Assembly (NCBI GenBank): GCA_021234155.1
Contig: JAJEKV010000008.1
Span: 7,900,445 to 7,964,444, forward strand
Direction: 5' to 3'
DNA length: 64,000 nucleotides
From: Isoetes taiwanensis
Taxonomy: Eukaryota > Streptophyta > Lycopodiopsida > Isoetales > Isoetaceae
Part shown: positions 1-39,200 of the stretch, piece by piece
Layout: every line of letters starts with the position of its first letter
Numbering within the stretch: position 1 is the stretch's first letter
Notes under the pieces: model-generated
What the model saw: the letters and a program-made list of their open reading frames with translations, nothing else
Told to the model about the DNA's origin: nothing
The model's database searches: none
Program-made: the position numbers and the translations under genes

Positions 1-110
1 GGGGATTTTAATTTAAATGTGTTAGATGCAATGGTTTATATTAATTAATGTTAATGGTAGTTATGTGTTAATTGCTATATTAAAAAAAAATTTGGGCCCT
101 TCGGGCCCTT
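1..110 (+). repeat. Dispersed repeat ending in ttgggcccttcgggccc (family R2), copy 1
   Basis: This stretch matches 17700-17831 almost base for base (ggggattttaatttaaatgt near the start, then a run of A and the small palindrome gggcccttcgggccc). A longer inverted relative lies at 16686-16950. It is a non-coding dispersed repeat whose left part is cut off by the window edge. No protein is encoded. The class is not established; it could be a non-autonomous DNA element. Confidence 0.75.
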
Positions 111-216
111 AGGAAGGAATTTCACATGTTAGAAACAACGATACAAATTATACTAAATGTTAGAAACAATGAGAGAGACTATATTAAATGAGGCAATGTG
201 TATATTACAAAAGGCC

Positions 217-549
217 TTAACAAATTCGAACATGCAATACAACATGGTTTTTATGATAGGGCCTCTTGACACATTTACAAATATTGTACGAGCATCTCTT
301 ACACACATTCACAAAAAATATACAAGCAGTAAAACCCCCCTTGGAAATCGAATCTGGATACTCCAAGCCTCCTCTATCCCTTCTCTTCCAACAAATCTCT
401 CCTTCTTGTCCTTCCAGAGCGAACGCAACGCAACCAATCATGGGCACATCTGCACATATACTTTTCAACGTAGGATTCCAACCACAATGGCTTAAAAATC
501 CTGCAAGCCTCATGATCCAAATGATACATGTCATATGTAATACTGACAT
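217..549 (-). pseudogene. UDP-glycosyltransferase fragment (PSPG box)
   Basis: Read on the minus strand, this piece contains GFLSHCGWNPTLKSICAD followed by VPMIG, which is the heart of the plant secondary product glycosyltransferase (PSPG) box that binds the UDP-sugar. The usual tryptophan-proline and aspartate-glutamine end of the box is not intact (CVAFALEGQ). The frame then drifts: a neighbouring frame reads ERRDLLEEKG where this one reads GEICWKRR, so there is an indel near 380-400. No N-terminal acceptor domain is found upstream within 1 kb. An intact family 1 enzyme has about 450-490 residues, so this is a decayed fragment. Enzyme family is clear; substrate cannot be told. Confidence 0.72.
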
Positions 550-619
550 TGTTTTCTGTCTGTCTAACCACTCTAGGTACTTTTTGTCTGATATGCGTAT
601 TTCTCTCCTAAGCCCAAAA

Positions 620-2160
620 TAAAGATGGCAATAATGGTCCCACTGCTAAATAACTTGAGCTCTGCATTAGAATATCTCTCATTGCCCTTGTTTTTACTGG
701 TTCAACCTCGTCAAAATTACTTGATAGAACATGTTTTACTCGGGATAATGTTTCATATCCCTTATCGATCACTGCTAGTTTTTTCTGATTGAGTGAAGAA
801 CAAGACAGGCAAGTCTGTAGGCTTCAAAAGCATGCCAGGAATAAAGTTAACAATCTCATCCTTGATATTTTTCCTGTTGATCCTGCATACAATAATAACT
901 AATTTCATTATTGTTATTGGGCTAACTTCCAATGCAAACAAGAAAAGAAGTTATTATCAACATATAATATATTACCTGTAACAAGAAAAGGTCCTCGACC
1001 TATGTAAAGGAGGCTGCAGAATGGACAAACAGCATCTCGGATAACACTTGGCCGTGAATATGAGTGGTGCTACATCTATGACTTCTGAACCGGCTCTACA
1101 AAATCGGAATTCTTCTGCCATGTATATTCAGCTTCTGCAACTGGCTCTACTGAATCAGAATTTGCCATCTAAAATATCAACAAAAGTAATGACGGGATGA
1201 ATGCTAGGAGAGGATGCTGGACAGAATTCGGTTACATTACAGAGCAAGGTATTGCTTCAAAGAAATAATAGGACAAAACTGATAACCTGTGAAGCAGCTT
1301 CAGTAAATCGCTCACAACTGGTTTTTTTCAGTGATCGCTCACAGCAAGGTTTCTCCAATCGCCCAAAAAACATTACTTTCATCACAACAATATGATCTAT
1401 AGCTGTTATTTTAGAAGAGAAGTTCATAAACGGTTGCAACTCCTCCCTGGTAGCCAAAGTTTCCTTGGCATAAAAATTTGAAAACAATGCCTTGAAAGGA
1501 GCTAACATTGTTTCTCCTCTGTAAACGTCCAGAAGGCAACATAAAGATGAGAATCGTTGCCAAAGCCAAGCGCCCTCAGCATCATACCAGTGTAAAAAAA
1601 AGGAAGCAAATGCACGATTGAAGAATCCTTTTCAAACAAAACACAGTAATAAAGAAGCAGCTGTTGGCTGAGATTAAGAACCCTAAAATTCCACGAGATT
1701 GCCTTTTGTTTCTGTCAAGCTGTAACAAAACCTAAGGCATGTGCCCAACAAACAAATCGACCAGCAACAAACTCCTACAACATGATGTGGATTCCGGCTC
1801 TCAATCTCGCCCAAGAACTAATGTTTGAGAGCTTCCTTGAATTAAAACTAATGCTACAAATGGAATCTGCAACTCGCATCTCAAACTGTGGTCAGAAAGC
1901 GAGATCCTGTTTATTTGCTCCTTTGCCAAAAGAAATTCCTTGCAAAACAATAACTCTGGCCAATTTGTATCACTGCAAATCGAGGTAGCCTAGATGTCTC
2001 CTGTGCCTTCCGATCGACTAAGACCATAATATAGGATGCATACAAACCCTAAAGCTAAGCTATCGAGCCCTGCATGCCTTTAGATTTTTTCTTCTTTTTT
2101 TTTTCCTTTTTTAAACATGGGTCAAACCATTGGCAATTGCCATAAAAAAAACATGAAACT
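620..2160. other. Intergenic stretch without recognised gene
   Basis: AT-rich sequence with only short open frames. I see no domain, RNA gene or clear repeat boundary. A small internal repetition (ggctctac...aatcggaattc / ggctctac...aatcagaattt) occurs near 1091-1160. Confidence 0.5.
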
Positions 2161-2164
2161 GTAT

Positions 2165-2285
2165 GCGCACTCTAGACGTACGCATTAGTACATCCACGAG
2201 ATTACACAACCAAATCATATAAAAACCTTAGGGAAAAAAGTATAAAAATACAAAAACAACCCCCTGTTATTGTGCTACATATTTA
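2165..2285 (+). repeat. End block of the GYGCACTCTAGA repeat family (R1), copy 1
   Basis: The block starts with gcgcactctagacgtac and runs to cccctgttattgtgctacat. The same block occurs at 20242-20365 in the same orientation and inverted at 15788-15905. In the inverted copy it ends with gtacatctagagtgcat, giving a terminal inverted repeat core TGCACYCTRGA against the gtgcaccctggactacc end at 15518. This suggests a MITE-like family; here only one end is present. Confidence 0.6.
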
Positions 2286-2289
2286 GTTA

Positions 2290-3670
2290 GTAAGGTAATA
2301 ATAAAGTATAAAGTTAAGGAAAAGCTAAGGTTATAGGTTTAAAATAAAATATTAAGGGTTTTGGATCAAGGAATTGGGCTAGTGGTTTATTTAGGATTAA
2401 AGGCTAAGTTAAGGAGGGGTATGCTACTGGATAAGTATTTATGATTACGGGATGTGTAGTTTAACAAGGTAGCTAGTTGTATATCTAAACCCTTTGGAAA
2501 TAACTAAATTAGCAAAGGGAAAATATATGCTAGGGGTATTACTAGCTGGGAATGGGTGCAGGAATTAATAAACTAGTTAGCAGGGTTATGGAAGCCACCG
2601 TCATTAAGGTTATAAGTAGTAATTTGAAGGAAGTTGATCTAGTTAAAAGTAATAAGATATTAGTGAAGGTTGTATTTTGCTTAAGCACCGGCCATTGCAT
2701 GTTGCATGGTAGAGATAGTAATGTTTATACGAGCATATAACTGGATTTCCTTTGTTGCATGAGGTGTAAATTATGGAATTTCTAAGGTAAATTTGATATG
2801 GAAATGTGCCTAGCTGATATTGAGTGGAATTCATAGTATTGTGATCTATGTGTAGTATAATTCTTTGATATAGACCTCTGGGGCTGGAGTCTAGGTGCGA
2901 TGTTCTAGACTCGCGGTTATTGCACAGTGCTATGGTATTATTTGAACATCGAGCGTTGGTACCGTATGGTACAACGTCATGCACAGTTAAGTGGTCCTCC
3001 AATGTTGGACGCAGCGTGGATGGGTGTGTACACACCTGGTTACCCCGCCTCTATGTCACTGGCCTGATCAGCCGAGTTGACCTTCCTCTGACCCAGAGGA
3101 ATATTGGTTGCAATGTTGATGCTATGATTGCTTGGTTATTATATATGTGGTCTTCTTTGTTGGAATTAAGTTGCATTGGTCATGTTTGCTGGACTAGTTA
3201 CTTGGATTGCAGGGGCGAGGCTACGGTAAGGTTAGGTTGTTGTTCTAGGTTAACGCCTTGTATTGTTGAAGCTAGATATGTCCCCCGATCCCCACTTAGT
3301 CCGTGTGACTAACCCCGTGGTTGATGGTGTAAGCAGAGGTGCGAGATGCTTCGAAAAGTAGCCAAGCTTCGGAAAGGCGAGAGTAGACGTGCGTGGATTC
3401 CTATTCAATAAACTTGATTATTATTACTATTATTTTTTATATATGGGCTTGAAGCTATAGTATTAAGAACATTCATTGTGTGCGGGGATATTGCTGAGTA
3501 ATGGGCAAGTATATGTTTGGGACCTTATAGCATATACAAAGATTAAATTCTTTACCTAAGTATACATGTATTAATTTCTTGAGTCCCGGAGATTAAGTAG
3601 ATCCAATGGTAGAGATCGATGGGATCTCCAGTTACCGAGAGGTTAACTGGCCAGGCCCGTCACACACGAC
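2290..3670. other. Intergenic stretch, possible old repeat
   Basis: No protein domain is recognisable. The texture (mixed simple AT stretches, a GC-richer middle around 2880-3400, and an AT tail at 3415-3440) resembles an eroded long terminal repeat, but I found no second copy in the window, so this is only a guess. Confidence 0.3.
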
Positions 3671-3673
3671 GTC

Positions 3674-4352
3674 CCCCATAATAGGAAACAAAATACGCTG
3701 CCTTATTTAGAATGTTACAGTTGTCAAGAACACGACCCTTAGTATCTCCAGCACCCCATCATAGGTACAGGTCCTTCCCCTTTTCTATCATGGAATCACT
3801 CACATTATGCAGATGACAGAAATAATGCACCTTCTCGATGTCCTTCATACAGTAGCCCACCATCCCTTCAAAGCAGTGGAGGCTCGTATTCCTCAGCACC
3901 TTACAGACCAAAACCACACCTACTGGCTTACATGGCAAGTTGAAGTCCCTCTTGATAGCTTCATTGATTGCCTTTGGAATTTTAAAACGTTCTCTTAGAA
4001 CACTCTGCACATGTAAGTGATTTGTAGATGAACCTCTCTCCAAGGCAACAGCCCCTGCTATGCATCTTCTATCACAAAAGGATGATAGGGCCTGATAGAA
4101 ACTGAGAGGCATGTCCTGGCCTGAGAGGCCTAATGTGACAGACACATCAATTGCCGCCCAACTCATGGAGGAATTGGGCATAGCATGAGGCTCTTGAGTT
4201 TGCCCAGAGTTACATGTGCCATGCATGGCAGCAATAGGCCAGATGGGATGCATCTCTGCAGTAGCAGACATAGCAAGAATGGAACCAACATTAGGAATAG
4301 CAGCTTGGCCTCCTACACCCCTGCCCTTTCTCGCTGCCGTCCTCAAAGACAT
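3674..4352 (-). CDS. HUH endonuclease (Rep-like) transposon protein, copy A, 3' truncated
   Basis: From the ATG at 4352 a frame of 197 codons runs to a TGA at 3759, and clear homology to copy C continues past it to about 3674, where the element breaks off. Residues 71-80 (SVTLGLSGQD) look like a Rep motif I strand. Residues 111-116 (NHLHVQ) are an HUH motif with H112 and H114 as metal ligands. Residues 166-171 (GYCMKD) fit the catalytic-tyrosine motif with Y167 as nucleophile, followed by H176-Y. This order is that of single-tyrosine HUH endonucleases that nick and join single-stranded DNA in rolling-circle or peel-and-paste transposition; no helicase follows. The start is chosen because copies B and C begin alike (M-x-x-x-(R/K)-(R/K)-A-A-x-K-G). 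An upstream in-frame extension to 4463 is probably 5' flank or a spliced leader. Of the three copies this is the one with all catalytic residues and no stop inside the HUH domain. Assignment to Replitron-like elements is inference. Confidence 0.68.
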
Positions 4353-4469
4353 AATAAAAAAGCAAGCACAAGAACGACACACGAAGAAGGAGGTGCTCAC
4401 CTGCTTGAACGACCAAGCATACCAAACTTGAAAGAAACGCCTCGCCGATCGCTTCATGGCCATTCTGAC

Positions 4470-5215
4470 ATCTGCAGCAAACGGAATTAGAAGGGGCCTC
4501 CGCTGCTCTCCAGATGCCTAAGGCCCACGTGCACTCTCATCCGCAACTCCACCTTCGGCACCAAAATATACAGCTTCTTCCCAGAAGGCAGAGGCCAGTG
4601 TCAGATTCATATGGCCTCACATACAAATACCTCTATAAAAGTTATGAAATCTTGAGTTATAAATCTATGCTTCTTGATCAGGGCAACATTATCAAGCCGA
4701 TTCCAATCTCGCCAGAGCCAAGAATAGGTGACTTTAATAAATCTTTTATGTTTCATGTGCATCCGAAGGTACTTCCGATGGCATTTGTTTTAATAACAAT
4801 TTACTCTACAGCAGCCCGGAAGCTATTCATGTGTAGAACATAAAAAGTGTACTTTGATATTTGAAAATCTCTTAGTTACTCCTTTGGCTGGTTTTGCAGC
4901 ACATTTTTTCTTGACCCAGGAGCAGATTACAAGGCAAATTTTGTTTAGCCACCAAAGTTTCTAGTATTTATTGATATAGTACAATGAGATACGCTTGAAT
5001 TTTGCCCCTTAAAACGTGACATTGATGCCCTGCCCTCAAAAGAAATTGATAGTTCATAAATAATTGACTCTTGGATAAATACCGGCTGGTATAACAGAGG
5101 TTATAGACCTAAAACCTCAAAATATACTCCAGATCCCAGGTTCGACCTCTCTTGACCTCTCGGCTCATGTGACGTTCCAGGGAAATATATGCCATAAATA
5201 TGTATATTTCCAGGC
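4470..5215. other. Flank of Rep copy A and intergenic sequence
   Basis: The first 200 bases are probably still 5' part of the Rep-like element on the minus strand. The remainder holds no recognisable gene. An imperfect palindrome (ccagggaaatatatgcc / aatatgtatatttccagg) sits at 5178-5214, directly before the LTR-like start. Confidence 0.4.
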
Positions 5216-10675: not shown

Positions 10676-10875
10676 GGGGAAAACTACAATATACCCCTAA
10701 CTTTTTGCAAAATTCACAAAATGCCCCTAACTTTCTAAAAATTCACAAAATGCCCTATACAGACTTGTGGACCGTGTGAATTTTGCACTATTTAGGGGCA
10801 TTTTGTGAATTTTTAGAAAGTTAGGGGCATTTTGTGAATTTTGCAAAAAGTTAGGGGTATATTGTAGTTTTTCCC
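10676..10875. mobile_element. 200-bp fold-back MITE with 9-bp target duplication
   Basis: Two inverted arms of about 80 bp, ggggaaaactacaatatac at the left and its near-perfect complement ending attgtagtttttccc at the right, surround a short spacer. The arms contain duplicated blocks (acaaaatgcccctaacttt). The nine bases aaaatagaa occur on both sides (10667-10675 and 10876-10884). A 9-bp duplication with very long arms points to a non-autonomous Mutator-like element. Nothing is encoded. The arms are almost identical, so it is probably young. Confidence 0.88.
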
Positions 10876-10884
10876 AAAATAGAA

Positions 10885-12950
10885 AATTTGTAACAAGCAT
10901 CTCAAACCCTGCGAAGTATACGGGATTGTATACAATACAATACGGGAATTATATTCCCAACCACTGCAAGAAAACCCTTCCACAATATGAAACAAATTAA
11001 GCACACTTAATGATATACGAGAATTTAACGATGGGGAAGGCACCGCCTTATGTACCTTCTTTGGGAGCCTTTTGGGAGGCAGACCCAAATACAATGGCAA
11101 TATATTTCTTAAAATGGTAAATTGAAGAGCTTTATTTCTTTCAATTTCATAAGATAAATAAAGCTCTACTCTTGTAGTTTGTTTATTTTTTAAATTGCTA
11201 GTAAATAAGTGGGTTTTGTATGTTAGATCTGCGAAGATAAATTCATGATGCCTTACATCAACATGGCATGTTGCACAACAAATTAGCAAATTTGACGATA
11301 CCGTTTCTCCATAGGCATATATTGTTGAATTTGGAAAGGAGCAATATTAGGAAAAAACACATTCAAGCTTAACTGCAAGATATATTAAGTCCTCAAATAT
11401 CCATCATGCGGCATCAAGAGGATGCATTATTTCCTCTAAACCCCTTTGGACCATCGACAATGTGAATTGCTTTAGCAAACCATGGGAACAGTGTAATCCA
11501 TGTAGTCAATCTTTTTATGTAGTAATAATTAAAATAAGAATCTATTCTCGGAATGGAATAAGAATTTTTAGATAGAACTAAAATAAGCATCTACTCTCAG
11601 AATAGAATAAGAGTTTCTAGATAGAATTGAAATACACAACTACTCTCAGAATAGAATATGAATTTCTAGATAGAATAAGAATTCCCAGATTTCATACCAC
11701 TACCACAGAGCCTTTTGTCCATTATTCATTCTACTGCTGCAAATGCTTGTAACTGTTATAATATTATCTGAATAATTGTGTGAATGTTCAATTCCATCAT
11801 GCATAGAGCGCATTTTATCCATTTAGAAATCAATCATTTCGAGTACTTGACCAACTCCTCTCAAGAAGCATTGTATTTATATGGTCATTATAACAAACTT
11901 AAGGCCTATGAAACAAAGAGAAACATTTTGCGAGCTATGACACATCTTAAATTTACCAGGCCATTGATATATATAAGCACGTGAGCATGCACTGCATTGA
12001 ATCCTGGCCGATTGAAAATTTCAGGATCAAAGGGTCAAAAGCAGATGATTTGGCTCCCTGATTTGCATCGACCTGGCATGTCCCATCTTTGGTTATAGGA
12101 ATTAAAATTCAATGGTGAAAGAATCCACAGATGTGGTTCGAGTAACATTTATGCAGACCAGATATATACGTCCATTATAAGTACTTACAGCAAAGATGTA
12201 TTGTCTGCAACACCTTCACATGCTTCTCGGAAATCTATCGCACTAAAATTAGCTCCCAACACGAAAGACGAAATTAACATCATTAATCTGCTCATATTAG
12301 CAGGATAATCTCATTCTAGAATAAAAATGGACATTCAATGGACGGAGTACACAAAAGTGTGAAATTGAAGAACACATGTTTGTTCCGAAAATCTGAAGCC
12401 TTCAGACGGCTAATATCCCTGCGACTTATTGACTAATCCCGTGTACAAAGCCTCCAATGTGTAAATTTAAAATGGCAAATTAAAAATATATATGCATGTG
12501 ATTTCAGAGTTTTGTCTTCCGATCTATTCTTCCCAGTGCAAAACTCGGAAGGATTACTATACCATAAATTGGAATTATAATATAGTTAGATCCACATTAT
12601 AAAGGCAGCTAAGTGAACTCATTTTGGTATCGGAATTGTACAAATCTAAAGCAATGCCCCTCGAACAGCATTGACCAACAAATCCATTAACTGCAACAAC
12701 AACTTTTGGAAAATGAAAGTTGAAGTACAAATATCACAGTTAAAATGTATTCTGCATCAAATATCACAGTTTTTGAAGTACAAGGAAATGCGAGTATAGA
12801 AGTACACAGTTTTTTAACTCAAGGAAATTAAATGTCTTAAATCATTACAGCCTTAAAATGACATCAAATTTTGTCAATGAGACGGTCAATGGAGGCACCA
12901 ATGCCCTTCAGAACCAATAACTTTTCTGCTTCTGCTTGCTTCAAAGTCTC
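10885..12950. other. Intergenic stretch without recognised gene
   Basis: AT-rich sequence. A short imperfect tandem repeat (ctactctcagaatagaataa type, three units) lies at about 11535-11690. No domain or RNA gene seen. Confidence 0.45.
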
Positions 12951-12959
12951 GTTCATTTG

Positions 12960-13619
12960 TTTTCCCTATTCCAACAAGCCGCCTTCGGATAAGTGGTCAC
13001 TTAAGCTTCCAGGTAGTAAGTGGCCCGCCATGTGGAAGTGGGCGTGGAATACATTGCCTCCTCCTAAAATCCGTACCCTTCTATGGCAGATCTTGCACCG
13101 TAGCCTCAGGGTGAATGTCCGAGTACACAGGTTCAAACCTCAGGTAGCGGAAACATGCCCTCTATGTGGGAGGCGCCGAGAGACCATTGAGCACTGCTTT
13201 GTCCTATGCACAGAGGTAGGGGCAGCTTGGTCCTGGGTGAGAGCCCTCTTTGGGTCTTCACTGTGCAGTCAGAAGCTTCTCATGGGAGTCTTTCCTAGCA
13301 GTTGGTCAGTAGCCAAGCAACAGGCGTTCCATTTATGCAGAGCTTGGCTTCTGTGGTTGATTTGGAAAAGACGGAGAGCGAAGGTCTTCCAGAATGCAGT
13401 GCTTAGCCCTTTTCGGTTGGTTCCGATCTTGAGGCATAAGTTGTGGCAGGCTTACCAAGTCTCAAGCTTGTCTGGCACAGTTAAGCGGGAAATTTGGTCG
13501 ACATTCCTACAGATTGTGAATCATGATGGGCACTTCATTTCTTAGCACCACACTTATCATTGTACTTGATCACATTCTAGTGGTTTAATATATTCCTATA
13601 TTCTTCAAAAAAAAAAAAA
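12960..13619 (+). mobile_element. 5'-truncated LINE, C-terminus of ORF2 with zf-RVT domain
   Basis: The open frame 12871-13545 ends with the plant LINE zf-RVT domain: a region TLLWQILHRSLRVNVRVH, then CPLCGRRRETIEHCFVLC, then a tryptophan-rich helix (AWLLWLIWKRRRAKVF). This domain follows the reverse transcriptase in plant L1-type LINEs. The element ends in poly(A) at 13607-13619. Its reverse transcriptase and endonuclease are absent, as expected for 5' truncation during insertion. The ORF start at 12871 lies in flanking DNA. It is inserted at the 3' side of the trihelix-like gene on the other strand. Confidence 0.85.
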
Positions 13620-14591
13620 GTCTTCCATTATATGTAGCGCCGTTTCTTTTTTAGAAGAAGAAGAATTTGGAGTTTCTTTTTTGACTTGCACGTTCTCTCG
13701 TGTAACATCTTGAAGAGTTTCTTGTGCAGTGTCTCCTATCTCTGATTCATTGTCTTCCTCGATTGCACCAGCATGAACGTGTTTCCTGACATTGGCTCTT
13801 TCACCAAAATAGCTATCCATTAAATTGTAATATGGACAGCTTTCTCTTCTATCATTTCCAGAAACACTATTCCATGTGACATCAGCCTAAAACTGTCTCA
13901 ACACATACTGAAATTTTTTCCTGCAGGCTTTGGCATCTTTCTTAAAATCAGGACACGTAGCGACAACCTTTGCATGCACCTGTCCCCACAAATTCGTACC
14001 CTGCTTTGGTCTCTCAGAGAATTGTTTATTCATTTCACATCGGGCATGTAATAGAGCAACAACATGCTTCTCTTGCCATGGTTTACCTGCATCGTCATCA
14101 TCTTCACTCGATTCTATTTCCACAGTAGAGGTTTTAGGGACAGCGGGCCTCTTGGTTTTCTTCTTCGCAGCATCTTTTTTTGGCTCAATATTTCTACTCT
14201 TTCTAGTCTTACCTGCAGGAGTGAAATCTGTAGAAGGTGGAGGCGCGGATGAATGTGCAACAATAGGAGGCTGAGAAAAATCTGAGTGGGCTGCAGATCC
14301 AGGAGGTAGGAGAGAAAAGTATGCAGCAGTAGCAACAGAGTGCATCACAGGAGCAGGATATGTGGCAACACTTGTTCTAGTAGATGTGGCCTCAGCATTA
14401 TTGGAAGTGCTTTGGTGAGGATTGAAGCAAGGGATAGGAGTCCGTCTGGCAATGAATTGATGCATGGAATTTGCAAATGGTGGCTGGCTAGGCTGGGAAG
14501 TGGCACTGAATGCAGGGTACTAGGTGGCTTGTATTTGCGAAAACTGATCATCCTGAGTGCTAGGAACAACATCATACTGACTAAAATCCAT
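13606..14591 (-). pseudogene. Trihelix (Myb/SANT-like) protein gene, two in-frame stops, 3' end cut by LINE
   Basis: A single minus frame runs from the ATG at 14591 (MDFSQYDVVPSTQDD) to 13606. It is interrupted only by TAG at 14520-14522 and TAG at 13887-13889. Residues encoded around 14020-13880 form a trihelix/Myb-SANT-like DNA-binding domain (KPWQEKHVVALLHARCEM, later NLWGQVHAKV and ACRKKFQYVL). They are preceded by a basic stretch (KKDAAKKKTKRP) that may be a nuclear signal and an acidic serine block (ESSEDDDDAGK). Both stops sit where a CAG glutamine codon would be plausible. The reading frame ends in lysine codons of an adjoining LINE poly(A) tail (antisense phenylalanines), so the insertion removed the original 3' end. 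It could be a host transcription factor or an accessory DNA-binding protein of a DNA transposon. Confidence 0.68.
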
Positions 14592-17832: not shown

Positions 17833-18135
17833 CCTAAAGCAAACATAGGTAAACTTTATGGGTCTAAACATTAATTACCAAAAAGCACAATAACATCAAG
17901 ACAAACAAATTATTTCCATTGCATACCAAGAGCCGCCCAAATATACGCAAACACACTGTTATAAAATGGGCAAAAACAACAGTAACATCATAAGGTTTAC
18001 TGAAGGGGGCCATGGTGCCCAATATAAAGCAGTACCACTAGTTCAAGAGAATCAACTGTCAAAATAGTTTAAAATACCCCCTTCTATTGTAAACTGCACA
18101 TTGTCATGCATATGCTAGTGCATATGATAACATGT

Positions 18136-18694
18136 CAGCGTTGCGATGGCAAATTCTCCATAGATGTGTTCGAGTGAATGTCTTGGTTCACAAGATGAAC
18201 TCTAGAGTCTCAGATCGTTGCCCTCTCTGTGGCCAACGTGTTGAAACTATTGAACACTGCTTCTTTTTGTGCGATCATCTACGGTTTGCTTGGGAGTGGT
18301 TGTTCACCCTTTTCAGTGTATCTCTCACTAGCCAGGAGATCCTGCTTGCACTTTATCCCCCTGTTTGGCCTAACTTGCGTAAGCGGGCATTTCATCTTGC
18401 TTCTAGTTGGATTTTGTGGTCTATCTGGCAGAGGCGACGTTTATGTATTTTCCAAGGTGCCCACATCTCTGATCAGCAGCTTCTCCGTTGTGCTCAGCAG
18501 AAGATCACTAAAGCTTATCGTTGCTCATCTCTAGCTGATGATAAAAAAGAGATGATTTGGCAGACGTATTTACGGTGTTCTTCTTATGCATAGACGGGTG
18601 TTTTTGCCTAGTTGGGTCAGCCTATCCACTAGGGTTTTATTCCTGTCTGTGCATTGTGTATTGTGCCTTTGTTCTTGTCAATAAAAAAAAAAAA
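18136..18694 (+). mobile_element. 5'-truncated LINE (zf-RVT end) with 12-bp target duplication
   Basis: The 559-bp insert encodes only the last 150 residues of ORF2: ALRWQILHRCVRVNVLVH, CPLCGQRVETIEHCFFLC and the tryptophan-rich tail (SWILWSIWQRRRLCIF), stopping at 18593. A 3' UTR (ggttttattcctgtctgtgc) and poly(A) to 18694 follow. The twelve bases atgataacatgt occur before (18124-18135) and after (18695-18706) the insert. The frame is open to the insert edge and the 3' UTR resembles that of the nested LINE at 41469-43190, so this family was active not long ago. Confidence 0.9.
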
Positions 18695-26709: not shown

Positions 26710-26896
26710 AGCAAGGTTACTTTTACACCCTTCTATCCATATATAACTCATCATACTTAAGATTGTCTCCACACAACTCCACACTTCATAATCAAAGATA
26801 TATCAATAGAAAAACTTTAACAAGTCCACTCACACTCATGCCCATAATTTCATGCTTACCTCCTTAATGATGATGGGCCTGGTCTATTAAATAACA

Positions 26897-28899: not shown

Positions 28900-30130
28900 A
28901 CTTGGATTTTTTTTAATTTTTCTCTTAACAGCTTGTAGCTTTTTTGAGAATTGCTTCTATCTCAGCGCTTGTTTTTTCGCGTTATTCAGATAAATAGAAC
29001 AGCAATTTGTGTCAATGTATTTGGGCTTATTTTTAACTGCAAGAATGGGGAATGAATAAGTAACACTTCATTTAGGAGACCTGTGCTCATCTGAACTAGT
29101 ATCGTTATTTATTTTTTTCAATAGTAATTGGGTATTGTCAATGACTACTATTTGGAATGATGTGTTCTGTTGGTTATGAGGAAAAATTATAGTGTGATAA
29201 CTAGAACCAGTACTAGGTGGACATACCATATAGTGTACCATTTGAGAGCTGGAACCTTGACTATTCAATGGTCTTGTTTTTTTGGGCCAGTCAGAACCTG
29301 TTCATGTAGAAAGAAGACAAAGTGGATAGATGCAAATCTCTATTTAATCCATGATTTTGACTAATTTAATTCCTCATGAGGCTTTACAGCAGCCCTGCAG
29401 AATCTGTTGTTATGAGTATTATTATGCTAACTACAATATGATACGAATTCTTGAAGAAAGGAGGCATTAGTGGGAGAAGATATTTTAGAATGCGATGACC
29501 TCCGATCTGCCTCATCCAAAAGATTGGGGTGTTTAACAAAAGTTTGTGTCCTCCCATGCTTCTAGGCTAAAGGCTTTCTTTATCAGTTCTGCCAAAATTA
29601 ACGGAATCAATTGCTAACCGTTGGAATTGTTAAAGAATAGAGGCATTATTGTTCTGATAACCTGCGATGTTTCACAGTATCCTTTTTCAATCGAAAGGAG
29701 AAGGGAAGATTACCAAAATGTCCATATACTTTGCCAAATTTATCAAAATGCCTCTAAACATAGGGTGTTGATCAAACTAGAAAGTGTCCTTTACAAAATT
29801 TATATAGGGGAGCGAGATTTGTCCAACGACACTAGAATCATTTAAAATGGAGTTGGAATCTTCAAGTTATCATTTAAAATGGAGTTGGAATCTTCAAGTT
29901 ATGGTGTTAAAGTGTTCCAAATTAAAAAGGGTACATTTGTTACATAAGGTTCTTAAAGGTTTTTAAGGGTTTTGTATAGGAATTTTGGTACTCTGTAGGT
30001 GTTGGATTCTTGCTTTACTATTGTTTTCTTGCATGCAAACTTGAGAATTCGTTTGTGCTTCCGTCTCTTGTTTCTTTGCTCTATCAGTTGCGCCTGAGGT
30101 AGACCTTTCTTTTGTTTATGTTCTTTTAGC
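28900..30130. other. 3' flank of SEC13 and intergenic sequence
   Basis: The first 150 bases hold the SEC13 3' UTR. A tandem near-repeat (catttaaaatggagttggaa, at 29839 and 29870) is present. No further gene recognised. Confidence 0.5.
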
Positions 30131-30139
30131 TGTAGCACT

Positions 30140-30440
30140 ATGTTTATAAAAAAGGCTGCTAGTAAAGGTAAGGCAATAGCCGAGGCTGTGCCTCCATCTT
30201 TGAGCTCGTTGTAGATCGGAGATTCTTCTGCAGGGCCTCAGATTGGAAGTTCTTAAGATTGGGGAGCCATCGATGAGTGTGACATTGGGGCTCTCTGGTC
30301 AGGATATTCCTAGAAGTTTTTATGATATGGTTGGGTTATGTAATAGGATGGCGGATTATTGTGCCGAGATTCCCCTGCTTCCTGGCCGTCCTTGTTTTGC
30401 AAGTTTCGAGTTGTTACTTAGATTGCCACTGTGTGGATAA
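30140..30440 (+). pseudogene. Rep-like element copy B, N-terminal part
   Basis: Starts MFIKKAASKGKA, like the start of copy A. After stops and a frameshift it reads SVTLGLSGQDIPRSFYDM, nearly identical to the motif I region of copy A. Homology stops near 30345, before the HUH motif; what follows is unrelated, and the next homologous block begins only at about 31690. The HUH and tyrosine motifs are therefore absent from this copy. Pseudogenised fragment. Confidence 0.7.
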
Positions 30441-30444
30441 GGAT

Positions 30445-31615
30445 TCTTGCACGCGTCCTTTATGTTTTTTAGGGTTAGAATCGAGGGGCATCCATACTAG
30501 TTATCCAAGGTTTCATAGTCCCTTTGTTGCTAGTGTAAGAAGACTACACCTAATCAAATTTCCATCTGTTTCTAAGTGGAGTGGAAAAGCAGATGCTTTA
30601 CCCTCATCCTCTTTCTGCACTTAGTTCTGGCTGAACATGTGCTTTACAACTTTGCAAACGTCGGCTTATCTCTCTGCAAAGGCAGATGTGGGCGGTAGCA
30701 AGTTTTGTGGTCAAATGCTGTCGCAAAGCCAGTTCTGGCAGAGCCTAGTGTTGATTTTTCCATTACAATACTGTTGAATGTGACCGAAAATAGGAAATAT
30801 AAATGAAATAGGTGCTTGGAGCTGCAGAGTTATGCATTGTCCTTTCTTTTATAGGTGGGGGGGGCTGGATATGCCAAGAATCTTGTTGTTCTAGATAAAT
30901 AAAATTTGATGAACAGGGTGTTGATTTTTCAAATTGTTCTAATAGCTTATTGCTCACGTCTCAATCACAGCTTTTTTAACTTAGAACAAGATAAATTCTA
31001 TTCAAAAATTCTTACTTTATGACCAAGCTACCCCAAAGTGCAAATTCAAACTTCAACAATTCTATTAAGCCCTTTGATACAAGTTCAAATTGATCTCTCA
31101 AATGAATATTGTCAATAACTTATAAAATAACCATTAAACAGAACACTGTAGCTCAGGGATTGACTTTTTTCCTGTAGTAGAGTTGACTAATCTCGAACAA
31201 TCATTTGCAAAACGCTCCGGCATACATCAAGCTCTGTGTACTTTGTTTTTCATCTCCATACTTCTATATACAGCCGATCCGGCGGTTATGGAGACGGATA
31301 AACTTGCCTCCCAAGAAATCTGAGCCTGGAGATTTATCCCACAGGCCGACTGGTGTTAGGTAGCCCTCGAACGGAATTATCCCACAGGCCTATTTCAAAT
31401 TTGCAGCTCCACGAACCATTGGTTCAACAATTCATTTGAATATTCAATAACATGCAAATAACTATTGCCATGTTATAACCTCCAACCTTAATAATTTAAC
31501 AACAACTTCTTCATGTCATAGGCTCAGCCTAGTTTGCCACAAACCAAATTGATCAAGGGGAGCCAAGATATGGTCCCTAATCCCCTTATGCCTTAATTTT
31601 CTTGTAAATCCTGTT
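30445..31615. other. Insertion or replaced segment within Rep-like copy B
   Basis: About 1.2 kb separating the N- and C-terminal parts of copy B. It holds no recognisable gene. A doubled block atcccacaggcc (31336 and 31378) and a G run at 30855 are the only notable marks. It could be an inserted element or the product of a deletion plus filler. Confidence 0.45.
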
Positions 31616-31689
31616 GATCTATGAATGAGTTATCTGTACATGTGTTCCACAGTTGTACAACAAGCCAATATCACATGATCTTCAGATTC

Positions 31690-32463
31690 CATCACAGGGC
31701 TGCCCATTTTGTGAACTATCATGATAATCGAAGGATGACTGCGAGTTTGACATATACCTTGATCTGGATAATTCATCTTGTCTTGTTTGTGGATAATCCC
31801 TTCTAACATTGCTCATATTAATGAGCATAGAGTTAGAGCCACTTGGAAAGTCCTGTTGAATCCTAGTCATTGTATGCCTTCTGATATGAGAACCATAATA
31901 TTTGGGTTGCCGGCAGGCTTTGTGCCCATTGAGAGAAATGGTCCTAGCCATAGACGTTAATGGGATGATAGTATTCTTAGTGATGAGGAAGATGTGAACT
32001 TTTGAGATATAAGTGATCCTAGTTTAAGCCTTGATGTGGTTATCCTGGAGCCTAGTGTGGATTATATCCCCATCCACATGGGTGATCATGCGATGGCTGT
32101 TGGTTGAGAAAGTTTCTTGTGTTTATTTTACAGTTGCAGTTTCTTGGTTTTTATTTATTGCACATTTTATCTTCTTGTTTGTGGTAATATATTGTTGCAG
32201 GCTTGTGATGGAGATCCGCAAGGTGGTATGAATCATCCAAATCTATCTTTAACCTCTTCGCTCATGACATCAGGGATTGATGCTTCTCATCTAGATCCTA
32301 TTGTGTATTCAACTGAGCCAGAAGAGGCATTCTCTACCCAGGAGTTGGTTGCCAATGTGGTACATATAGGTACTGAGGCCCATCGGATAGCCGCATTGCT
32401 TCGTATCCCGAGACAACAACTTAGTGTGTTCTTTGTTTCTATTGATAATGCCATATCTAGTTA
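31690..32463 (+). pseudogene. Rep-like element copy B, C-terminal part
   Basis: Homologous to the C-terminal half of copy C. It reads HRAAHFVNYHDNRRM (copy C: NKAAHFVFYHGGRRL), then WIIPSNIAHINEHRVRATW and CMPSDMRTIIFGLPAGFVP. After a short AT-rich, intron-like gap ending ttgttgcag (32200), it reads EEAFSTQELVANVVHIGTEA. Several frameshifts and stops. The function of this domain is unknown; it is conserved in the family and follows the HUH domain. Confidence 0.65.
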
Positions 32464-32599
32464 GGTGTGCCGGTTTTGAAGTTATATATTTTGCGGTCTC
32501 GCACAAGTCTTGCAAAAACTTTGCTAGTTTAGGAGATTCACCAGATGGATGCATTACATGGCATGCGCAATCTATGCCAGCCATGAACTAGTGTTTGAA

Positions 32600-33470
32600 A
32601 TACGTTTTGTGTTTTGTGCTTTTATGTTTTCAAGTAAATTTATGAGTTTTGATGTGGACATGTGGTTTAGTGCTTGCAAGTGTACATAGACATTGGCGAG
32701 CTCAACTTGGTGCATTGCAACACATGTGGTTGCTAGTTGGCTGAGTTGAAGTTTCTTCAATGCAATGTATAGTGGTTTTTGGGTAATGTATACATTTATG
32801 GATCTTTGTTGGTTGAAATTGAGGCCATTTTATTTGATTAAAAGTTTGAATTGATGTAGGAGTGTGATGTGTGTACTAACTTTGTAGAATTTTCAGTGGG
32901 CTGCGTCCCTGGGTATAGCAGTTATTCCATGTTTGGAATAGCTGCTATGACCGAATGAGCATGAACATCTTGCTAGGGTTCAACTCCCCAGGCTCACTAA
33001 TTTGTATATATTTTGTCCTTTGCAGATTGTTTTTGAAACTTTAGAATGTCTATGGATGTTGGTAATCACTCTGATGTTACTAAGTGCAAATGCTTTGAGC
33101 GATGCCAGAGTGATTAACGCCATGCATAGACTTTTCAAAATTCGAGATTCATATGTTGAAGAGGATCATATGCAGTCATCCTTTTGCTGGGATAGCTGCT
33201 ATGTCTATTGAGCATGGGCATCTTGCCGGGATTCGACTCCCCAGGCTTTACTCAATCGATTTTGCTTTTATTGTTGTATGAGAAATTTTAATCTATTATA
33301 TATATGGGAGGTTGAGTCTTGATTTAATCAAGATAGAACAATTAGATTTATGGGGTGGGTCAAGGGGAGAGTGTTTGGCTCCATCTTGAATTGCAATGAA
33401 GGGTGTTGAAGCTATTTGATGGAATATTGTTGATAATGTGGTCCCGATCAAGAATGCTATTTTTGTTACA
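32600..33470. other. 3' region of Rep-like copy B with hairpin modules
   Basis: No gene. Two copies of a structured module, gagcatgaacatcttgctag...ggctc at 32957-32995 and gagcatgggcatcttgccgg...ggct at 33210-33247, are each preceded by a gctgctatg block. See the matching modules after copy C. Confidence 0.55.
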
Positions 33471-33871
33471 TATGATTTCCTAAGGTAAGGGGAGGTATTC
33501 GTATGCAAAAACGTAATTTTTGTGATGCTCGCATCTGGGATGCGTTTTGGAAACCTAGCTGGCAGTAGAGTCCTGAGATCCGGATGGGGTCGGGTTTGGA
33601 GGCGGCTGCAGGTGTCGCCAACAGAGGAGAATGCTATTTCGGGGGAGATTTTGTGTTGTATCAGGTGTCTATCCGGTTGATCCGGTTGCATGAGGTGTCG
33701 CCAGCACAGGCTTGGCCGTTTTCGGGGAGGACGTCCTCTGACTGGTGTTCTCAGATATAAGGTTTGGTTGAGCGGCCAGGGTGGAGCGATCTGCACAGAC
33801 CAGAGGTTAGCATCTTGGCCAAATCCTTTGTTTTCATCCTTTGTTTGGTCTGTTTTCATCCTTTGTTCATC

Positions 33872-35420
33872 ATGTCTTTTATGAGGAGGGCTGCCCAGAA
33901 AGGCCAAATCCAATGGACATCTGTCTTTTTGTAACCCAATTGAATCAGAGTCTGCACAGACTCAAAATTCGGTCCAGAATTCTGCCATGCCCTCCCATGA
34001 CATTCCTGATGTTGCACAGGGCTGGGATGCAATAGATGCCTCTGTCACGTTGGCCTTGTCTGGTCAGGACGTGCCCCGCGCCTTCTTTGATGCCATGTCT
34101 TTGTTTTGCAACAAGAGGTGCATTGCTGGTGCAGTTGCCTTGGAGAGGGGATCCTCTGCTGATCACCTCCATATGTAGGTTGTCCTTAGAGCCCGTTACA
34201 AGAGTCCTAAGGCCTTGAATGATGCTATCAAAAGGGAGTTTAATTGGCCTTCTACGCTTGCGGGTGTTATCTTAGTATGCAAGGCCCTCAAGAATAACAG
34301 ATTGCATTGTTTCGAGGGTATGTTAGGGTACTGCATGAACGATATAGGGAAAGTACATTACTCCTGTCACTTGCATAATATATTTGAGAGTATGATTGAT
34401 AAAGGAAAAGATTTGTACTTGAGATGAGGAGTTAGGGACACGAAGAATCTTTGTATGTTGGATAATAGAAACCTTTTGAACAAGGCTGCCCACTTTGTGT
34501 TCTACCATGGTGGGCGCAGATTGACCCCTAGTTTGATGTTCAAAATTTGCAGGATGCTGAGAAGCGAAAAATATACTCTGAGCAGCAGTTGGATAATCCC
34601 ATCTAATACTGCTCATGTGAACGAACACAGGGTCCGTGCCGCTTGGAGGGTCTTGTTGAATCCCAGTCGTTGTATGCCGTCTGATGTGAGAACAATTCTG
34701 TTTGGTCTCCCTGCAGGTTACGTCCCTGTTGAACGAAATGGGCCAGGCCGCCGCCAATATTGGGATGACTCAATCCCCCCGATGAGATGGACTGCAATTT
34801 CCAGGAGATCCATGATCCATCGTTCAGCCCTGATATTGAAATCCCTGACCATGGTGTTGATTATATCCCCATCCACACCGGGGATCATACGATGACAGTT
34901 GGCTAATCTATTGTTTTTGTTGTTGCACGTACAACTTTATTTCTGTCCGTGTTTTGGTTTGTTTCAGCATGTGTTTGTATTGGTAACAAGTTGTTGCAGG
35001 ATAGGGATGGAGACCGATGGCAATCCTCCTGGGGAGACCAGTCATCCTGCTGTGACTATAGATCCATCTTTCATAAGCACTGTGATTGAGGATTCCCATC
35101 CAAATCCTGAGGTTTATGCTCCTGAGGGGGAGCAGATGTTTACTGCAGAGGAATTTTTGACCAGTATCATTCAGGTTGGAATGGAGGCTCATCGAATAGA
35201 TGCCCCCCTCAGGATCCTGAGAGGCAGCTGACTAGCTTTTATGTGGCGATCGATTCCGCGATGTCCAGTGTGGCCTGGGAGCAGCTTGGTGCCCCGTTAT
35301 CTGAACTGCAGGCTTTGAGGTCTCACATGAGCTTGGCCAGGTGCTTGTTGACACAGGAAATCTGGCAGCTTGATGCTGTGATCATGGGGGCTACATCTGG
35401 ACAGACCAGGAACTAGGCGT
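33872..35420 (+). pseudogene. Rep-like (HUH endonuclease) element, copy C, most complete length
   Basis: This copy shows the full layout of the family. After MSFMRRAAQKG and a frameshift, one frame runs from 33987 to 34895 broken by just two stops. It contains ASVTLALSGQDVPRAFFD (motif I), SADHLHM (HUH motif, directly followed by TAG where copy A has CAG) and GYCMND (tyrosine motif, the K of copy A replaced by N). A TGA at 34425 lies next to the position where copy A also has TGA. The C-terminal domain reads NKAAHFVFYHGGRRLTPSL, WIIPSNTAHVNEHRVRAAW and CMPSDVRTILFGLPAGYVP. After an intron-like gap (about 34905-35000, ending ttgttgcagg) a tail follows: FTAEEFLTSIIQVGMEAHR, and after a frameshift a tail ending GQTRN at 35416. 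No helicase or DDE domain is present. Inactive, but informative for the ancestral protein of about 500 residues. Confidence 0.68.
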
Positions 35421-35606
35421 TGTTCTTTCTATTGTGTTTGCAGTGTTTTTGTTTATGCAGTTTGATACGCGTGGCCCCAGACCACATGTACATTCTCTGA
35501 GCCTGTGAATATGTGAAGTCCTGTTGCTTCATGCTATGTCTTGTACATGCTTTGCGCTTTCCATTTGACTAACATCTGCAGGGTTGAAGAGGGCTTTGGC
35601 CCTTGG

Positions 35607-35645
35607 GCATAAGGGAGGCCCCTTGCACCGGGATCTCCCTTATGC
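35607..35645. repeat. Perfect 11-bp hairpin after Rep-like copy C
   Basis: gcataagggag and ctcccttatgc are exact complements separated by 17 bases. The left arm sequence recurs at 35723. Possible terminal or subterminal structure of the Rep-like element. Confidence 0.75.
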
Positions 35646-35651
35646 TCGGAT

Positions 35652-35690
35652 GAGCATTGGCATTGCATTGGGTTTTAATTCCCCAAGCTC
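35652..35690 (+). repeat. GAGC-GGG-CCC-GCTC hairpin module 1 after copy C
   Basis: gagcattggcattgcattgg ... ttccccaagctc: outer pairing gagc/gctc, inner ggg/ccc. Followed by actaacgaatcgtgtttgtt, which recurs after module 2. Confidence 0.7.
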
Positions 35691-35750
35691 ACTAACGAAT
35701 CGTGTTTGTTCGAGCATAAGGGAGGCCCCTTGCACCAGGATCTCCCTGGG

Positions 35751-35972
35751 CGTTTGGTCTAGTGGTAACACACTAGTTCTTTAGCAATGTGGTCTCGAGT
35801 TCGAGACCGCCCAGAATCGCACTCAGTACTGTTGGAGGTCAAATCCCAACAGACGCAATGTAAGGTGGTTGGGGGCAGGGCCCAACCGAGCAATGTAGTG
35901 TGGTGTGTGGTCACATGTCCAGTTGGATGCTGCCTAGTGGCGTGACGTTAAAACTACTATCTATCTTATGCT
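35751..35972 (+). repeat. tRNA-derived SINE-like element
   Basis: Begins gggcgtttggtctagtgg and reads ggtctcgagttcgagacc 40 bases later. These match polymerase III A-box (TGGTCTAGTGG) and B-box (GTTCGAGAC) consensus at tRNA spacing, but the arms do not fold into a tRNA. A 150-bp unrelated body follows, ending aaaactactatctatctt. The insert separates two copies of the hairpin module (35652-35690 and 35978-36016). Confidence 0.65.
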
Positions 35973-35977
35973 CGAAT

Positions 35978-36016
35978 GAGCTTTGGCATTGCATTGGGGT
36001 TCAATGCCCCAAGCTC
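35978..36016 (+). repeat. GAGC-GGG-CCC-GCTC hairpin module 2 after copy C
   Basis: gagctttggcattgcattgg ... atgccccaagctc, near-identical to module 1, also followed by actaacgaatcgtgtttgtt. A third, more distant version (ggcatgggcattggatattt ... ataccccaggctc) lies at 36173-36213. Confidence 0.7.
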
Positions 36017-36219
36017 ACTAACGAATCGTGTTTGTTGATTTCCAGGAAACAAAGAAAGAACCATGTATAGGATCATCGAATGCATGCCATTGACAACTGG
36101 ATCTTGGAGTCGTAGTCAATTAGCATGTGTTCGATGGCTCCTATGCATGGGCCGAACGTGGAACACAGGTAAGGCATGGGCATTGGATATTTGGGGTTCG
36201 ATACCCCAGGCTCTACTTA

Positions 36220-39200
36220 TTGTTTTCCTACTGTATTGTATTACATTGTTCTTTTCCTACTGTATTGTATTGCATTGAAAATACCCTTTTATGTAATGGT
36301 CTTTGCCTTAATAATGTCCCTCTCATGGCCAGGTCAACAGGGGCAAGTTTGACTTGCAAAAGACTCAGTTTGTACGCTCTGGATTTAAGGGGAGAGAATA
36401 TGCTCCCACATGTGCTGCAATCCAATGGACAAAAAGCCATAATACACGATTTAGCCATAATGCACAATAATATTCCTCAATCTAATGGTCATGAAAAAGT
36501 ATGAGACACCCCAAATGATAATACGCCCCAAATTATTAAATTCGTGTTTTATAAAACAACTCAAAAGAGCATAACTTGTGAGTTTCAACTCCAACTTAGA
36601 TGGATCTGATCCATCTTATCAACTTTTGTCATGCCAACTTTCGCATTTTAGATGAATTTAATCTTGTTGGAAAGATCTTATCATGATCTGCAACTTTTCT
36701 GAAGATAACTTTTGCCGATCTAGAGCGTCCATTTTTTTGGTCTGTCTTCGTGCCTCCAATAGAATAGGTTTACCTCGTTTGCCGACATAGCTTGTGGTCG
36801 ATAGGCATTTCGAACATCCGCCACCCTAGCTTATATTCGATGGGCATCGCAAGCATCTGCGTCATGGTCTGTGATGAAGACGACGGCAACATATCTTCAA
36901 TCCGCCCGAATGCTTAGCGCCACATGGAGGAATCCGGCCGCAGGAGATGTGACTAGAGTCCTATATATAAGAATTGCAATGTCGGTTGATAGATAGAGTG
37001 CTGTTGTGGATGCTAAAGCCAAGGTTTCTACAGATTTGATGTTGTTCTAGCTCCTCAAGTTCAAGCAATGCTCTTTAAACTTTCGTTCTGGTGCAATTAA
37101 TCTGGTGCTATTTGTATTGTTCCGTGCATGCTTGAATAATATATGTAGACTTCTTAGCTATGTAGTTTTAGCTCAGTTTTAAGTAGCAGATGATTACATC
37201 TTCCCTGCAGTTCAATGTGCGTGTGATCATTGTTGTCCCTAAACTCTATTCCATTGCGTGGCTATTTGTAATAATGGTGCAAATAAGTTAGACAATAAGG
37301 AAGGAAAATCAAAGAACATTATGACAATAGAACGATTATCTGTATCACCATAATGAAGAATCAACCTTTAAAACATTGTGTCTGACGCAAACTTCATAGT
37401 AATTGTTTGTTGGCTTTTTAAATCATATTTTAGAGATAAAGCTTTGTTGTATTGTCCACATGTTATCTCCATAATATCCTCATTGAGACCAGTTACACGT
37501 CCTAGGTTTTTCAGTTTTCCAGAATGCACCTGTTTCCAAGAATGCTTGACCTTAAAGTGAAAAATATTGATATACATGTTCCATTTGATTCTGATTTCTC
37601 ATAAGGGAGTTGGACCTTCAATTATTTAGGTAGATGAAAGTTGTGCCTTTGTTATTGAAAGAAGTTTATTATATTGAAGTCCTCGGGAAGCAATAATGGA
37701 GCTTTATATTAACGTGCAGTGAAAAACCCAATTCTTTTCTATAGTACGAGGGTCTTGATGATAACCAACCAATTGTTTTCTACAGTAGGAGGATCTTGAT
37801 GATAACTATATAAGTCTGACCTTTTGCCTATCTTATCATTATTTTCATGCTGCAGATGTTGCTTCATAAAGGTGAACTTTAGTTGTTTATGTAAACTCAA
37901 TTCGTCCGTAAATGATCCAATATGGTTGTGGCAGTTGAGAAATGACTTTAATTGAGTATTAAAGAAGCTTAATTCATTGATACACTCACAATCAAGTGGT
38001 ATTAATCATGCAGTCCAAGGAGATGGATTGTCGTAAGATTGCCATCACAAATGCATAACCTGGGACTGGTGAAAACTTTCCTTCCCTTCGATATTTTGTC
38101 AAGTGTACAAGAATAAATATTTGAATGGATAACATGTGAAAAATAGAAGTACTACATTGGGATATAACATTGGAATATAGTAATCGGTGGAAAAATTATG
38201 ATATTACATTAGAATATAGTAATTTTCTGGTGAAAAAGTTTGTGGGTCTTAAACGTTATGGATTTCTGTGTGGAAAGCTACACATTAGAATTCACTGTGG
38301 CTCTAGAATAATACTGAATTTTCCTTTATAAAATAGTCGATTCAAACATCAATACAACATTGTATCCTTGATAAATATTGATAAATAGAAATTTCTCAAG
38401 TGTGTTGTCTCCCAAAATCATCCCCTTCTTCTGACATAAAGTGCTTGAGCTTTTTGACTGAACCATAAATTGATTTTTAGATGGTCGATTTCTACTTTGA
38501 TCTATTTGATTTATTTAGATTCCTTTTTTTTTGAACAACATTGTATTGTCAAACGTTGGGCATTAATAGTGGGTCCAACTACACAGGTCGAACTAAAGAA
38601 ATGTTCCTGGCGGCTTTGACCACCACCATAAATTTCTTGTACCTATAAACTTCCCACAATTTGAACTTTCCCTAATTTGTTTTGTAAGGGGAGGGTATTC
38701 GCGCAATGTTTAGGACTATGATTAGGTAAAGTATTGTATGAAAAGTCATATATTTAAGGGAGTTTGAGCAGCTTGGTTGGTTTATAAGTCTCATTTCTAT
38801 TTTCGATTACTTTGGAGGCATTTGTTGCAATGGTTTAAAAAGAGAAAGAGGTGGAGTGATTTTTCGGAAAGTATTGGAGTGCAGGCATGATGCCCTTCCT
38901 GTGGAAGAGCCAGGCGAAGATTGCGATAGTGCAAACTCGAATTTTTCCAGATCCAAATTTTGCCAGATTTGAGGGTAGGGACAGATTTGGGAGAGCCACA
39001 CGTTAGAAGCATGCCTTCTTTTCAGAAGAAGTTCTACAGATTCAGGCTGTAGAGGGAGTTGGCGCCACATGCCATTGGCCAAAAGACTGTTGGTGCTAAT
39101 GCTATGTGGAGGTCCAACTCCTCTAACCTGCTTGATTTTGCAGCCTATTTGGTTTGAGAGAAGTGAGTTTGCATTGCTTATGCGAGGACTGTAGAGAGGC

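Follow-up and report, generated by a model that had tools for sequence, protein, structure and literature searches.

A dead, interrupted Replitron in the lycophyte Isoetes taiwanensis and the high-copy family to which it belongs

Features of the locus

The window (the whole stretch of 64,000 nt of Isoetes taiwanensis DNA analysed here) holds the first half of an element on the minus strand, copy A, and further along two related elements on the plus strand, copies B and C. These and the other annotated features are given below with their window coordinates, strand and basis.

1..3664, minus: in-window part of the insertion splitting copy A (TGTGACGG...CCGTTACA), which extends to about window -1625
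3665..4692, minus: first half of copy A, i.e. the 5' terminus ATAATGTTGCCCTGATCAAG ending at 4692, the leader and the start of ORF1 (two-block alignment of relatives)
about -1627 to -2773, outside the window (locus L031), minus: second half of copy A (alignment of relatives)
3759..4352, minus: ORF1 frame of copy A, 197 codons plus a TGA stop at 3759-3761
3762..4142, minus: Replitron_HUH domain (PF21859) of copy A, residues 108-233 of the 234-residue frame
3852..3854, minus: Tyr codon of GYCMKD, the presumed catalytic residue, copy A (sequence; 24 of 24 other copies covering the position)
4011..4019, minus: His-Leu-His codons of the HUH motif, copy A (sequence; conserved in other copies)
13887-14465, minus: frame with a Myb/SANT-like DNA-binding domain (PF13837, E 4.4e-07)
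27942-28892, plus: SEC13-like gene, intact, without introns, 316 codons (protein similarity)
29905..33260 (ends approximate), plus: copy C, a wrecked Replitron directly 5' of copy B (blastn/tblastn pieces)
33433..36534 (3' end approximate), plus: copy B, a second, older-diverged Replitron (termini and protein homology)
33872..34906, plus: broken ORF1 of copy B, with a frameshift near its start, TAG at 34176-34178 and TGA at 34425-34427
35007..35416, plus: frame-shifted ORF2 of copy B (homology to the ORF2 of relatives)

The nuclease domain of copy A

The minus-strand open reading frame 3759-4463 contains an internal ATG, the codon of which ends at 4352, and reading from this ATG gives the 197-codon frame; the ORF from 4463 is longer and takes in the leader. 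A Pfam scan of the copy A frame (24,736 models) assigned it to PF21859, Replitron_HUH, with an E value of 7.5e-17 and 62.3 bits against a cut-off of 28.5, the alignment spanning positions 1-127 of the 128 in the profile. The sole further family listed for copy A fell below its threshold (E 0.019, 15.9 bits, cut-off 27). An earlier, sequence-only reading of this DNA had described a motif I-like SVTLGLSGQD, an HLH motif and GYCMKD, in this order. All three are present on the minus strand, the first being encoded at window 4113-4142. The same reading had suggested a Replitron-like HUH element without a helicase or DDE domain, and had proposed a profile search. Such a search leads to Replitron_HUH, far beyond chance, PF21859 lying over its cut-off in copy A and also in copy B when the latter is read through. 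The absence of a helicase is likewise borne out by the Pfam scans, which found no helicase domain in copies A and B, in ORF1 of three relatives with open frames (L014, L025 and L018) or in ORF2 of L014 and L025.

The HUH motif and the Tyr in the expected order would also fit a Helitron or another known HUH lineage, such as an IS200/IS605-like element or an insert derived from a CRESS Rep. We consider such an assignment extremely improbable, as Pfam scans of copy A, copy B and the three relatives found neither a helicase nor any other HUH family, and the only clear match was Replitron_HUH. According to a passage of a review (PMC10741241), Replitrons are already listed in liverworts, mosses, lycophytes and ferns; copy A is thus a Replitron, of a kind reported from its own host group, and the separate land-plant lineage that had been offered as an alternative is superfluous. 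Replitron transposases are counted among the HUH enzymes in a passage of a more recent article (PMC13231165, 2026).

Other searches returned no relatives. In a protein database search that requires shared 5-residue words, none of the 643 candidates for copy A reached E <= 0.001, and none of the 923 candidates for the read-through of copy B reached E <= 10. A sequence search of the PDB with copy A yielded nothing, and the corresponding profile search gave one unrelated chain (E 2.1) and no HUH protein. Four stretches of viral contigs were matched, none of them a relative, while PHROGs gave noise only and NCBIfam no match. AlphaFold models built from two or three sequences had mean pLDDT values of 33.6 and 34.8, i.e. 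no usable fold. Among the literature matches listed, none on Isoetes or lycophytes used the word Replitrons, and the main text of the I. taiwanensis genome paper (PMC8566536) contains neither a word starting with transposon nor the word Helitron.

Copy A is a whole element split by an insertion

The frame of copy A proved to be real and, at the same time, just the beginning of a longer gene, since homology to other copies continues beyond its stop codon to position 3665. Relatives L014, L019 and L024 align to copy A as two blocks, one at window 4692-3665, with the 5' end of the element and its ATAAT terminus at 4692, and the other at about window -1627 to -2773, in the adjoining sequence (locus L031, C1089:7896900-7901400). 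The genome search with the ORF2 query described below also gave a match on the strand of copy A, 2.1 kb beyond the window. Between the two blocks lies an insertion of 5,290 bp, which splits the element within ORF1 and is bracketed by a perfect 5-bp target duplication, TCGTG, at window 3665-3669 and at about -1630 to -1626. The two alignment blocks around this insertion show that the gene of copy A was not originally short: copy A amounts to a whole Replitron, split by an insertion. The possibility that it is a 3'-truncated element was considered and ruled out, because the adjoining sequence shows the split.

Copy A is dead. Besides the insertion, it has the TGA at 3759-3761 in ORF1, another stop in the C-terminal part and a frameshift near the start of ORF2. 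Its catalytic motifs are intact, as had been claimed from the sequence; the gene that carries them is broken. Neither the death nor the interruption of the element is visible from the window alone.

The insertion itself has TGT...ACA ends and resembles a solo LTR or an LTR-derived element. It is without long direct repeats inside and contains one inverted repeat of about 450 bp. A frame in its part at window 217-549 is reminiscent of the sugar-donor box found in plant glycosyltransferases, with the Pfam UDPGT match below the cut-off (E 0.084).

The family in the Isoetes taiwanensis genome

A genome search with PF21859 gave 2165 candidates, and all 150 places scored were over the cut-off, compared with none of 14 control genomes. 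With copy A as the query, at least 155 matches were obtained (150 of 3163 candidates scored). All these copy numbers are lower bounds. Twenty loci, L009-L028, chosen for their long open frames, were examined, together with smaller pieces of others. For the assessment of individual residues, copy A was compared with 25 other copies, namely 24 loci and copy B; L001, L003, L005 and L007, which were copy A itself or duplicates, were dropped.

The first His of HLH is present in all 25 other copies and the second in 24, the exception being L008, which has Tyr. The Tyr of GYCMKD occurs in each of the 24 copies that cover the position, and a second Tyr (in KVHY), ten residues further on, is equally kept (24/24), so that conservation does not prove the single-tyrosine enzyme expected of a Replitron. 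Conservation of the HLH and GYC motifs across aligned genomic copies had been named as a test of the HUH assignment, and these His and Tyr residues are indeed nearly invariant. The three open relatives L014, L025 and L018 scored 69.4-74.1 bits with PF21859; with PF21860, Replitron_C, they gave 13.6-14.9 bits against a cut-off of 27. Some pairs of copies share 94-98% identity along most of their length, which suggests recent movement.

A protein under purifying selection could also belong to a host gene family with an HUH-like domain, perhaps a domesticated transposase. This explanation has next to no likelihood, as there are at least 150 dispersed copies, many of them broken, and their common sharp ends and unrelated flanks represent the behaviour of a transposon. 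We are highly confident that the nuclear genome of this lycophyte harbours a high-copy family of Replitrons, with copy A as one of its dead members. Copy A itself is a fossil that alone adds little. Its family, on the other hand, offers, within a vascular plant, many very similar copies whose frames are open and whose 5' end is sharp, so that nicking, the element ends and the role of ORF2 become testable.

Copies B and C

Copy B starts with the 5' terminus ATAATGTGGTCCCGATCAAG and has the 3' sequence GACACCCCAAATGATAATACGCCCCAAATT; its 3' region carries, as judged by eye, a SINE-like insert and duplications. The HLH codons of its ORF1 lie at 34164-34172 and the Tyr codon at 34329-34331. The HUH part of copy B (33951-34421) is 62% identical to copy A (blastn, tblastn), and the protein identity of copies A and B is 65-66%. 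Read through, copy B gave 59.3 bits with PF21859, and with PF21860 it gave 16.2 bits read through and 18.0 in one piece, the cut-off being 27. In 141 aligned codons, copies A and B differ by 24, 25 and 83 substitutions at codon positions 1, 2 and 3, respectively, with dN of 0.19 and saturated dS, which indicates long-separated lineages that were both selected for the protein. A tree of 25 copies, from which L002 was omitted, groups A with L004, L006 and L008 and unites B with L021 and L022.

The HUH region of copy C is destroyed. Its C-terminal part is recognizable from about 31694 and the start of its ORF2 near 32208.

A recurring motif that contains a GGGGTTCGA..CCCC hairpin was observed at window 32918-33290 and 35633-36036, 3' of copies C and B, respectively. 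The window contains it four times, in each case no more than about 1 kb 3' of the coding part of copy C or B, and it was not found to equal the 3' hairpin of their relatives (see below).

A distinct arrangement was noted at locus L002 (C963:847381-848946), where an ORF2 match shares its strand with an HUH match that directly follows it in the 3' direction. It looks as if two Replitrons were placed head to tail, and copies C and B of the window give the same impression.

Ends and length of the elements

The better preserved elements are typically about 2.4-2.7 kb long, with a sharp ATAAT(G) 5' terminus and, at the 3' end, a predicted hairpin and then short repeats in which ATAAT recurs. Seventeen of the 18 delimited loci measure 2.37-2.72 kb, some of their ends being approximate, and the remaining one, L010, measures 4.1 kb. 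The ends were taken from pairwise blastn. Of the 18 loci that extend to the 5' end (L021 and L022 fall short of it), 17 show a sharp break of the homology between copies at ATAAT; L012 reads TTAAT, and L017 and L018 share one base before ATAAT. The 3' ends are more ragged: the ATAAT-containing repeats, e.g. GACACCCAAAACGATAATACACCCAAA, were found in 13 of 20 loci, L015 is without the first A, and in six loci the homology stops earlier. A trial pattern for the 3' repeat was discarded, as its first half was wrong and it gave one match.

A genome-wide count of the exact 17-nt terminus ATAATGTGKCCGAAATT gave 187 hits, compared with none for its reversed control. This number does not equal the number of elements, because some of them carry the terminus twice: in three of the 18 loci scanned (L011, L029 and L030) it recurs 360-490 bp from the 3' end, with 16-17 of 17 matches, as compared with none of 200 shuffles. 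Termini about 2.1 kb apart had been considered as head-to-tail arrays, and this was ruled out, since in L029 and L030 both occurrences fall within a single element.

No terminal inverted repeats beyond those of shuffled sequences were detected in any of 13 copies. The 3' hairpin is weakly better than shuffles in the eight relatives folded (z -1.07 to -2.95), and copy B shows no such hairpin (z +1.72). At the blastn-based ends of 13 copies, no target-site duplication of at least 4 bp was seen; ten of these copies have flanking words of 2-3 bp, by eye at chance level. An empty site was not found among the locus sequences examined.

A second reading frame

In this family ORF1 is followed by a spacer of roughly 60-100 nt and then by an ATG-started frame of about 135 codons, ORF2. 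The 3' end of the spacer consists of a conserved pyrimidine-rich stretch and TTGCAG. ORF2 is open for at least 85 codons from its ATG in 9 of 14 loci, and in pairwise comparisons of seven copies selected for their long frames dN/dS lies at 0.05-0.35 in 16 of 21 pairs, with dS saturated in the other five. ORF2 is under purifying selection. It has no Pfam match above the cut-off, and a comparison with the PDB by sequence gave nothing meaningful (best E 0.18).

A genome search with ORF2 yielded 1518 candidates, of which 150 were scored, all matching. At least 19 of the best 45 matches have a listed HUH match directly 5' on the same strand, and one of the 45 has it on the opposite side; the 48 HUH places used for this pairing were selected visually and with knowledge of the ORF2 list, so that the count is a lower bound and does not represent a rate.

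The conserved pyrimidine-rich stretch and TTGCAG at the end of the spacer raise the question whether ORF1 and ORF2 encode successive parts of a single protein, as two exons that are joined when the spacer is spliced out, in which case there would be no accessory protein. The joined frame is indeed open in one group of copies (L009, L012, L015, L025, L026 and L027), in which the distance from AG to ATG is 6 nt. However, this distance is 5, 6 or 7 nt depending on the group, and with 5 or 7 nt the same splice would put ORF2, which is nevertheless selected, out of frame. Moreover, in the displayed copies the context of the ATG (ATA in L021 and L026) includes a purine at -3 and a G at +4. The variable distance favours separate translation of ORF2, without making it certain, and we keep the single spliced protein as a possibility of appreciable weight that nonetheless falls short of being probable.

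A further-reaching proposal is made here tentatively, and in its entirety we regard it as rather doubtful: that the Replitrons of this lycophyte might be two-gene elements, in which ORF2, independently translated and selected across the subfamilies examined, would take part in transposition. If this were true, the Replitrons of vascular plants would so far have been only half described.

Comparison with other HUH elements and a putative mechanism

Replitrons were named only in 2023 and their movement has largely been inferred. Replitron-1 of Chlamydomonas, in the work of Craig from that year, reportedly moves by copy and paste.

According to the review passage cited above (PMC10741241), Replitrons have termini of short direct repeats of 5-11 bp without inverted repeats, a length of 900 bp to 4 kb and a target-site duplication of 2-8 bp. 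The Isoetes family resembles them in its HUH domain, which exceeds the PF21859 cut-off, with no helicase found, in its short direct terminal repeats without inverted repeats, in an element length within 0.9-4 kb and in a host group that the same passage reports (PMC10741241). It differs in that Replitron_C (PF21860) stays at 13.6-18.0 bits, below the cut-off of 27, wherever the region was scanned, and in that no duplication of the reported 2-8 bp (PMC10741241) could be assigned to its copies at the ends used. Compared with this review passage alone, the Isoetes family adds the conserved ORF2.

The Isoetes elements also bring Helitrons to mind, being without inverted repeats and having a hairpin near the 3' end. 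Helitrons are eukaryotic HUH transposons with both of these properties, in which a helicase is fused to the HUH nuclease (RepHel) and two Tyr residues stand close together. The Isoetes element, by contrast, is without a helicase domain, and its conserved Tyr pair is ten residues apart. The Reps of CRESS-DNA viruses and the transposases of IS200/IS605 elements combine an HUH motif with Tyr chemistry, which the Isoetes ORF1 shares in principle, whereas it has no Pfam match to either group and no PDB sequence match.

By homology, ORF1 is a Rep-like HUH transposase with a C-terminal domain. Drawing on HUH chemistry, we infer the following biochemical steps for this protein and a role for ORF2. The ORF1 nuclease would bind a metal ion via both His residues of HLH, and the Tyr of GYCMKD would nick the DNA at the ATAAT end and stay covalently attached to the 5' phosphate; host enzymes would meanwhile copy or displace one strand. 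A further cleavage by ORF1 may follow at the 3' ATAAT repeats, after which the single-strand copy would be joined to a new site, which would amount to copy and paste. The small ORF2 protein might aid the assembly of ORF1 or hold the single-stranded DNA.

Other features of the window

The scans of the window for tRNA genes and Rfam families gave no match. The proteins nearest to the SEC13-like gene product are those of Diphasiastrum (78%) and of Sphagnum and Selaginella (77% each), with seed plants reaching about 74%. A near-perfect inverted repeat occupies 10676-10875, its 80-nt arms being 99% complementary and 40 nt apart. Remains of non-LTR retrotransposons were noted at 12871-13545, 18132-18593 and 24713-26784, with zf-RVT in three frames and RVT_1 in one. 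The frame with the Myb/SANT-like domain at 13887-14465 is possibly a host gene or a gene derived from a transposon.
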